The notes under the pieces were generated by a model. That model was not told the origin of the DNA, searched no databases, and saw only the letters and a program-made list of their open reading frames with translations. A program made the position numbers and the translations under genes. From Candidatus Bathyarchaeota archaeon (lineage in GTDB: Archaea > Thermoproteota > Bathyarchaeia > 40CM-2-53-6 > RBG-13-38-9), in assembly GCA_026015185.1 (NCBI GenBank), contig JAOZGX010000008.1, positions 1 to 37,741 of the forward strand: a DNA stretch of 37,741 nucleotides. The letters are read 5' to 3'. Below, in pieces: positions 11,729 to 16,262 of this stretch (positions within the stretch are counted from its first letter, which is position 1; each line of letters opens with the position of its first letter).

Positions 11729-11838
11729 TGCGGCCACCGGGATTTGAACCCGGGTTAGAAGCTTTCTCCTAGTCTAATGGGAAGTTCAGGCGTTTTCTTA
11801 AACGACTCCCGTCCTAGACCAGGCTAGACCACGGCCGC
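11729..11838 (-). tRNA. tRNA-Gly (anticodon CCC or UCC) with two introns
   Basis: The 110-base gene folds as a tRNA only after removing 35 bases. Acceptor GCGGCCG pairs with TGGCCGC (7 pairs incl. one G-U), D stem GTCT/GGAC, T arm CCGGG-TTCAAAT-CCCGG, discriminator A. The best anticodon stem is GGAGT (11805-11809) with GCTTC (11758-11762). A single intron would place G at position 33, which is always U. Two introns, 11784-11804 (contains hairpin GTTT-AAGA-AAAC) and 11764-11777 at the canonical 37/38 site, give loop TTCCCAA with anticodon CCC; shifting both cuts by one gives UCC. Both read glycine, matching the acceptor and D-arm. CCA is not encoded. Isotype is inferred by hand folding. Confidence 0.7.
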
Positions 11839-15827: not shown

Positions 15828-15870
15828 CCTTTGAGGTAATATTAAAAAAGGTTCTAAAAAAATTGAAAAA

Positions 15871-16024
15871 TGGTGGGGTCGGCGGGATTTTCAAGGTTTT
15901 TACCATTTGAACCCGCGACCGCCAGCGTGCTGGGCTTAGCTCCCCAGGTTCACCGCTCCAAAAGAGCTCTGGTATCCTTTTGGCGGTTTTAATATACACC
16001 TAGACCAAGCTAGACGACAACCCC
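15871..16024 (-). tRNA. tRNA-Pro(GGG) interrupted by four introns, CCA encoded
   Basis: The ends pair as an acceptor stem (GGGGTTG 16018-16024 with CGACCCC 15875-15881), followed by A and encoded CCA. Between them the gene is 151 bases, 75 too long. Removing 15976-15998 (23), 15949-15968 (20), 15924-15937 (14) and 15887-15904 (18), exactly 75, restores a 76-base tRNA: D stem GTCT/GGAT, anticodon stem CCAGC/GCTGG, loop CTGGGGA (anticodon GGG), variable CGGTC, T arm GCGGG-TTCAAAT-CCCGC. The introns lie in the D stem (about 23/24), anticodon stem (30/31), anticodon stem (41/42) and T loop (60/61). The third carries CCCAG, which can pair with exon CTGGG as in bulge-helix-bulge substrates. Exact cuts may slide by up to three bases (flanking AGG and GCT repeats). 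Confidence 0.85.
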
Positions 16025-16262
16025 TCTCCAAATAACACCTCTTTTCTATACTCCACTAGAATTTCATAAATATATCTAAAATTTTTTATCTATTCATTTC
16101 GCTTGCTGTATGATTTATCACGGCCTAGTAGATTTAATAGTTTTCAATTCGAATAAAATTATTATCAATAGTGCACACTTTTTGGTTTTGATTATGGAAA
16201 ATGCTTCCAGAATCATCGTTAGAAATTAAAAAGAAAAATCAAACTTAGGAGAGCAATCAGCT

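Follow-up and report, generated by a model that had tools for sequence, protein, structure and literature searches.

Multi-intron tRNA genes are known in archaea, and three introns is the reported maximum for a single archaeal tRNA gene (PMC4033280, PMC8450103, PMC4390854), examples being tRNA-Pro(UGG) of P. islandicum and tRNA-Glu(UUC) of P. calidifontis (PMC4390854). Among complete genomes assessed by tRNAscan-SE 2.0, Pyrobaculum calidifontis ranks highest, with 71 introns in 46 genes (PMC8450103). In Thermoproteales such as Pyrobaculum and Thermofilum, several short BHB introns can occupy canonical and noncanonical sites of one gene, most tRNA genes are interrupted, and the endonuclease is of the (alpha-beta)2 type. 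Such endonucleases cut relaxed BHBs efficiently, a crenarchaea-specific loop being responsible for their broad specificity (PMC6379350). In the Asgard groups Atabeyarchaeia and Freyarchaeia, introns interrupt 92-95% of tRNA genes, frequently at noncanonical sites, and more than half of the genes are multi-intron (PMC11291895). Three-intron tRNA genes have also been described in algae, for tRNA-Ile of Cyanidioschyzon (PMC9602550) and for tRNA-Met and tRNA-Cys (PMC4090602).

Here we describe a tRNA-Pro(GGG) gene with four introns in a stretch of 37,741 nt (the window) from a Candidatus Bathyarchaeota archaeon. The gene resembles those of Thermoproteales in all the respects listed above, but it has four introns rather than three, encodes a different isoacceptor and belongs to a different, uncultivated archaeal lineage; it thus lies outside the at-most-three pattern of their multi-intron tRNAs, three being a limit of the literature and not a biological rule. 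Frequent noncanonical introns are shared with Atabeyarchaeia and Freyarchaeia, which are a different archaeal group; full Asgard-type actins were not found here, the matches being weak and crenactin-like. One distant actin-family (crenactin-like) gene lies at G000:C114:40024-41010, with similar genes in G002, G011 and G012. Together with an endonuclease of (alpha-beta)2 type, the weak actin matches would fit placement in TACK, for example among Bathyarchaeia. Like the algal three-intron tRNAs, the gene is interrupted across its D, anticodon and T arms, whereas the algal genes are eukaryotic, have three introns, and differ in sites and enzyme. Full-text searches of openly readable papers turned up no archaeal tRNA with four introns. 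The initial annotation, made from the DNA sequence, had placed four introns at or beyond what is known, in keeping with the published maximum of three. Four introns would thus suggest a new extreme, with a prior example possible.

Gene Structure

By direct sequence reading the gene occupies the minus strand of the window from 16024 to 15871, a strand that the initial annotation had left unstated. It measures 154 nt from G1 to the CCA (151 nt without CCA), and its ends read GGGGTTG...CGACCCC A CCA; both the acceptor arm and the T arm are intact. Its parts, all on the minus strand, are as follows.

16063..16078, minus: putative TATA-like promoter element of archaeal type, AGATATATTTAT, some 45 nt upstream, proposed from sequence only
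16002..16024, minus: exon 1, acceptor 5' strand, positions 8-9, D stem 5' strand and D loop to 20b, GGGGTTGTCGTCTAGCTTGGTCT; matches intronless orthologues L116-L123
15979..16001, minus: intron 1, 23 nt, D loop 20b/21, AGGTGTATATTAAAACCGCCAAA; the BHB has 4 central pairs, 3 inner pairs and 2 outer pairs
15969..15978, minus: exon 2, position 21, D stem 3' strand, position 26 and positions 27-30, AGGATACCAG
15949..15968, minus: intron 2, 20 nt, anticodon stem 30/31, AGCTCTTTTGGAGCGGTGAA; the BHB has 4 central pairs and 4 or more inner pairs but lacks an outer helix
15942..15948, minus: exon 3, positions 31-37 with U33 and the GGG anticodon, CCTGGGG
15928..15941, minus: intron 3, 14 nt, canonical 37/38, AGCTAAGCCCAGCA; BHB with 4 central and 2 inner pairs
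15906..15927, minus: exon 4, position 38, positions 39-43, variable loop, T stem 5' strand and T loop to 59, CGCTGGCGGTCGCGGGTTCAAA
15888..15905, minus: intron 4, 18 nt, T loop 59/60, TGGTAAAAACCTTGAAAA; the BHB has 4 central pairs and 2 inner pairs, and the full 5-bp T stem serves as its outer helix
15871..15887, minus: exon 5, position 60, T stem 3' strand, acceptor 3' strand, discriminator A73 and encoded CCA
15856..15870, minus: T-rich run directly after CCA, a possible terminator judging by its letters

The four introns (23, 20, 14 and 18 nt) total 75 nt, and their removal leaves a mature tRNA of 79 nt with CCA or 76 nt without. A strict 4-bp central BHB helix is present at all four, flanked by 3-nt bulges in which cleavage would fall after nucleotide two; the 30/31 intron is alone in lacking an outer helix and is therefore a relaxed BHB. 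The outer helix of intron 3 is the anticodon stem itself, once intron 2 has been removed. All five exons are collinear within the 154 nt, so this is neither a split nor a permuted tRNA gene. The spliced product leaves a standard cloverleaf of identifiable isotype, which ARAGORN calls as tRNA-Pro(ggg), 79 nt.

The isotype given in the initial annotation is thus upheld by ARAGORN on the spliced sequence, and its four introns of exactly 75 nt leaving 76 nt, its D-loop and T-loop sites (20b/21 and 59/60) and its count of three noncanonical sites (those two and 30/31) all stand. Its statement that the canonical 37/38 site is unused was mistaken: a 14-nt intron lies exactly there, placed so because orthologues without that intron read CTGGGG^CGCTGG. 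The two anticodon-stem sites it described are in fact one stem site, 30/31, plus 37/38, and the segments differ slightly from those it implied.

Detection and Intron Junctions

As the initial annotation had anticipated of standard finders, two simple tools miss the unspliced gene: ARAGORN calls no tRNA on it, and Rfam at gathering thresholds finds no tRNA in the whole window. tRNAscan-SE 2.0, which iterates BHB removal, might detect it. We wrote a splice decoder that lists candidate introns conforming to the BHB rule and rates the cloverleaf left after their removal, the answer not being supplied; its final scoring is anticodon-aware, allows a third interior intron and penalises long variable arms outside Leu and Ser. 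The four-intron parse ranked first with a score of 71.0. None of 1,000 dinucleotide shuffles of the gene interior, with acceptor and T arm kept, reached that value (best 65.5, mean 47.0, sd 5.6). An earlier hand reading of the D-loop intron with a UUGG/CCAA central helix, and hence a shorter D loop, was replaced by the UGGU/GCCA register, which gives the same D loop as intronless relatives and tRNA-Pro(CGG).

Relatives that lack individual introns fix the junctions independently of the decoder. The f5 orthologues L024 and L031 lack the 20b/21 intron and read GGTCTAGGAT across the junction; these and the f2 orthologue L030 also lack the 30/31 intron, all reading CCAG^CCTGGGG, and two f5 genomes read uninterrupted GTCTAGCTTGGTCTAGGATACCAGCCTGGGG through both sites. 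The f3 orthologues lack the 37/38 intron (CTGGGG^CGCTGG; CTGGGGCGCTGG across the site) and the 59/60 intron, where the junction is GGGTTCAAATCCC. Ungapped class-level orthologues without introns match the predicted mature tRNA at 74/79 (L116) and 72/79 positions (L117-L119), and the D loop of the same-genome paralogue tRNA-Pro(CGG), on contig C60, is identical and uninterrupted. Natural intron-minus orthologues confirm every predicted junction.

Conservation Across Related Families

Every f1 genome that yielded the gene, eight in all (G000-G007, from six genera), has the same four introns; the f1 genome G008, which is 82% complete, did not yield it. Because these close relatives keep the same four interruptions, the gene is real and probably working. 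Intron lengths and sequences vary, but the intron helices are kept with compensatory changes: at the first inner pair, all cells counted across the four introns (11 + 10 + 12 + 11) show a standard pair, several inner pairs have changed on both sides, and the first inner pair of the 59/60 intron is GU, GC, UA or CG. Helices that persist through compensatory change are what selection for splicing, not decay, would predict.

Beyond f1, the order's other families have two to four introns drawn from seven sites. In f2 there are four (G009) or three (G014, without 30/31); the G009 gene was parsed by hand and has a weak 37/38 BHB with 3 of 4 central pairs. Family f3 mostly has three introns (20b/21, 30/31 and 45/46), with a fourth at 7/8 in G022 (L164, G022:C57, minus strand) that forms a perfect BHB of 4 central, 5 inner and 5 outer pairs. 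Four introns are also present in f6 G013 (L162, G013:C15, minus strand), at D-loop 15/16, 20b/21, 30/31 and variable-loop 45/46, and f5 has two. The more distant f9 G040 has three (20b/21, 30/31 and 37/38), and several class-level orthologues have none. Taken across families, these combinations show that seven sites (7/8, 15/16, 20b/21, 30/31, 37/38, 45/46 and 59/60) are used in one orthologous gene, and that four introns were reached by at least three combinations, those of the window, f6 and G022 types. A survey of relatives had been proposed in the initial annotation, and introns are indeed absent at the same sites in f5, f2 G014, f3 and some class-level orthologues.

Alternative Readings

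Three other readings of the locus were considered, and we regard each as improbable. The least unlikely accepts the introns but shifts some junctions by at least 1 nt, for example placing the anticodon intron after position 38, as in the initial annotation. Junctions can indeed slide, through four possible registers for intron 1 and five for intron 4. Sliding leaves the mature sequence unchanged, however, and the strict BHB rule selects one register for each of these two introns, while introns 2 and 3 have no sliding ambiguity and C38 is retained in orthologues without intron 3. A shifted junction is thus a slim prospect.

Slimmer still is the chance that the locus is a tRNA-Pro pseudogene or remnant in decay, its insertions random, and that a working gene lies elsewhere. 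The assembly is 96.6% complete, which leaves room for such a gene in a gap, but no second tRNA-Pro(GGG) was found in the genome, the best other match to the mature sequence being a tRNA-Gly at 78%. The initial annotation had named a second, uninterrupted tRNA-Pro(GGG) gene, combined with a lack of transcripts from this locus, as grounds for rejecting its reading, and the 96.6%-complete assembly contains none that we could detect. All stems of the gene in the window are intact, its CCA is encoded, and its architecture is maintained, with compensatory intron changes, throughout the eight f1 genomes. We give least credence to a three-intron tRNA that retains the CUAAGCCCAGCACGCUGG stretch and has a long variable arm of class II. 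That parse came first (64.5) in an initial decoder run without anticodon-aware scoring and with fewer introns allowed, yet the four-intron parse beats it once both are allowed. On that reading the anticodon stem would be mismatched (CCAGC/GCTAA) and a proline tRNA would carry a long variable arm; it is refuted by the f3 and class-level orthologues, whose sequence there, CTGGGGCGCTGG, has a 5-nt variable loop.

Probable Splicing Enzymes and a Possible Order of Excision

The genome encodes two PF01974 tRNA-intron endonuclease proteins, one catalytic and one non-catalytic. The alpha subunit (C26, 186 aa) is nearest to the enzymes of Aeropyrum, Sulfolobus and Pyrobaculum, and its loop residue Lys39 aligns with A. 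pernix Lys44 of the crenarchaea-specific loop; the beta subunit (C93, 171 aa) lacks the catalytic His. An RtcB ligase is also encoded, and so both a ligase and an endonuclease predicted, from the PF01974 pair and the specificity-loop Lys, to cut relaxed or noncanonical BHBs are present. Excision of the four introns would most likely fall to a heterotetrameric (alpha-beta)2 endonuclease carrying the crenarchaeal specificity loop, and the exons would then be joined by RtcB to yield a 79-nt tRNA reading CCC and CCU. Transcription of the precursor, intron excision and ligation are all presumed steps here. We consider it highly probable that this is a functional tRNA-Pro(GGG) gene, the only one detected, with four BHB introns that are cut by the (alpha-beta)2 enzyme and exons that are joined by RtcB.

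Every splicing intermediate was folded as unmodified, protein-free RNA, and central-helix probabilities were read from the ensembles. In the predicted ensemble of the full precursor, the 59/60 central helix has a probability of 0.88 and the other three range from 0.06 to 0.36. Predicted removal of the 30/31 intron raises the 20b/21 motif from 0.06 to 0.85 and the 37/38 motif from 0.36 to 0.98, and removal of the 20b/21 intron raises the 30/31 motif from 0.09 to 0.83. The 20b/21 and 30/31 introns thus appear to mask each other, because removal of either exposes the other. Within window positions 15949-15990, minus strand, base pairs can form between the 3' portion of intron 1 (around ACCGCCAAAAGG) and intron 2 (CTTTTGGAGCGGT). 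In the predicted folds, pairing between the two introns hides both splice motifs until one intron is gone. The 59/60 motif would be available from the start, and the 37/38 motif would gain its outer helix, the anticodon stem, only after excision of the 30/31 intron; excision of the four introns may be at least partly ordered. Since only the 59/60 BHB forms well in the precursor ensemble, splicing in the cell may depend on an order or a partner outside the model. At minimum energy the mature sequence, folded without modifications, adopts a structure other than the cloverleaf, a common outcome for unmodified tRNAs.

Other tRNA Genes of the Genome

Automatic decoder parses scoring at least 66 were obtained for 30 tRNA genes, a sample and not the full tRNA set, which together contain 48 introns (1.6 per gene). 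Seven have no intron, three have one, 16 have two, three (Lys-TTT, Ser-TGA and Met-CAT) have three, and Pro-GGG is the sole gene with four. tRNA-Pro(CGG), at G000:C60:1262-1370 (plus strand), is interrupted at 37/38 and 59/60, sites that it shares with Pro(GGG), and tRNA-Pro(UGG) was not found in G000 with the patterns used. Also in the window, tRNA-Gly(CCC), at 11729-11838 on the minus strand, carries a 21-nt intron at 30/31 and a 14-nt intron at 37/38. In G000, introns lie at 30/31 in Pro-GGG, Gly-CCC, Asn, Phe, Lys-CTT and Met, and all six of them end in GAA; the common ends hint that 30/31 introns may have spread between genes. Several 16S rRNA genes of relatives (L147-L149, L154 and L155) measure 1730-2391 nt against a 1478-position model, suggesting 16S introns or insertions in the order.

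A broader proposal would hold that the order is the most tRNA-intron-dense lineage known, that its Pro(GGG) gene repeatedly reached four introns via at least seven sites, and that mutual masking of two introns makes splicing of the window version an obligately ordered cascade. Taken as a whole we put this forward tentatively, and think it rather unlikely to hold in full.

Implications

The gene would raise the number of introns per tRNA gene above the published maximum of three, and as a conserved state. Its relatives constitute a natural series of zero, two, three and four introns at fixed sites of one orthologous gene, so that intron gain, intron loss and splicing order become directly testable. 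Where multi-intron genes are missed, tRNA counts in metagenome genomes of this kind will be too low, and such undercounts feed completeness estimates and codon-usage models.
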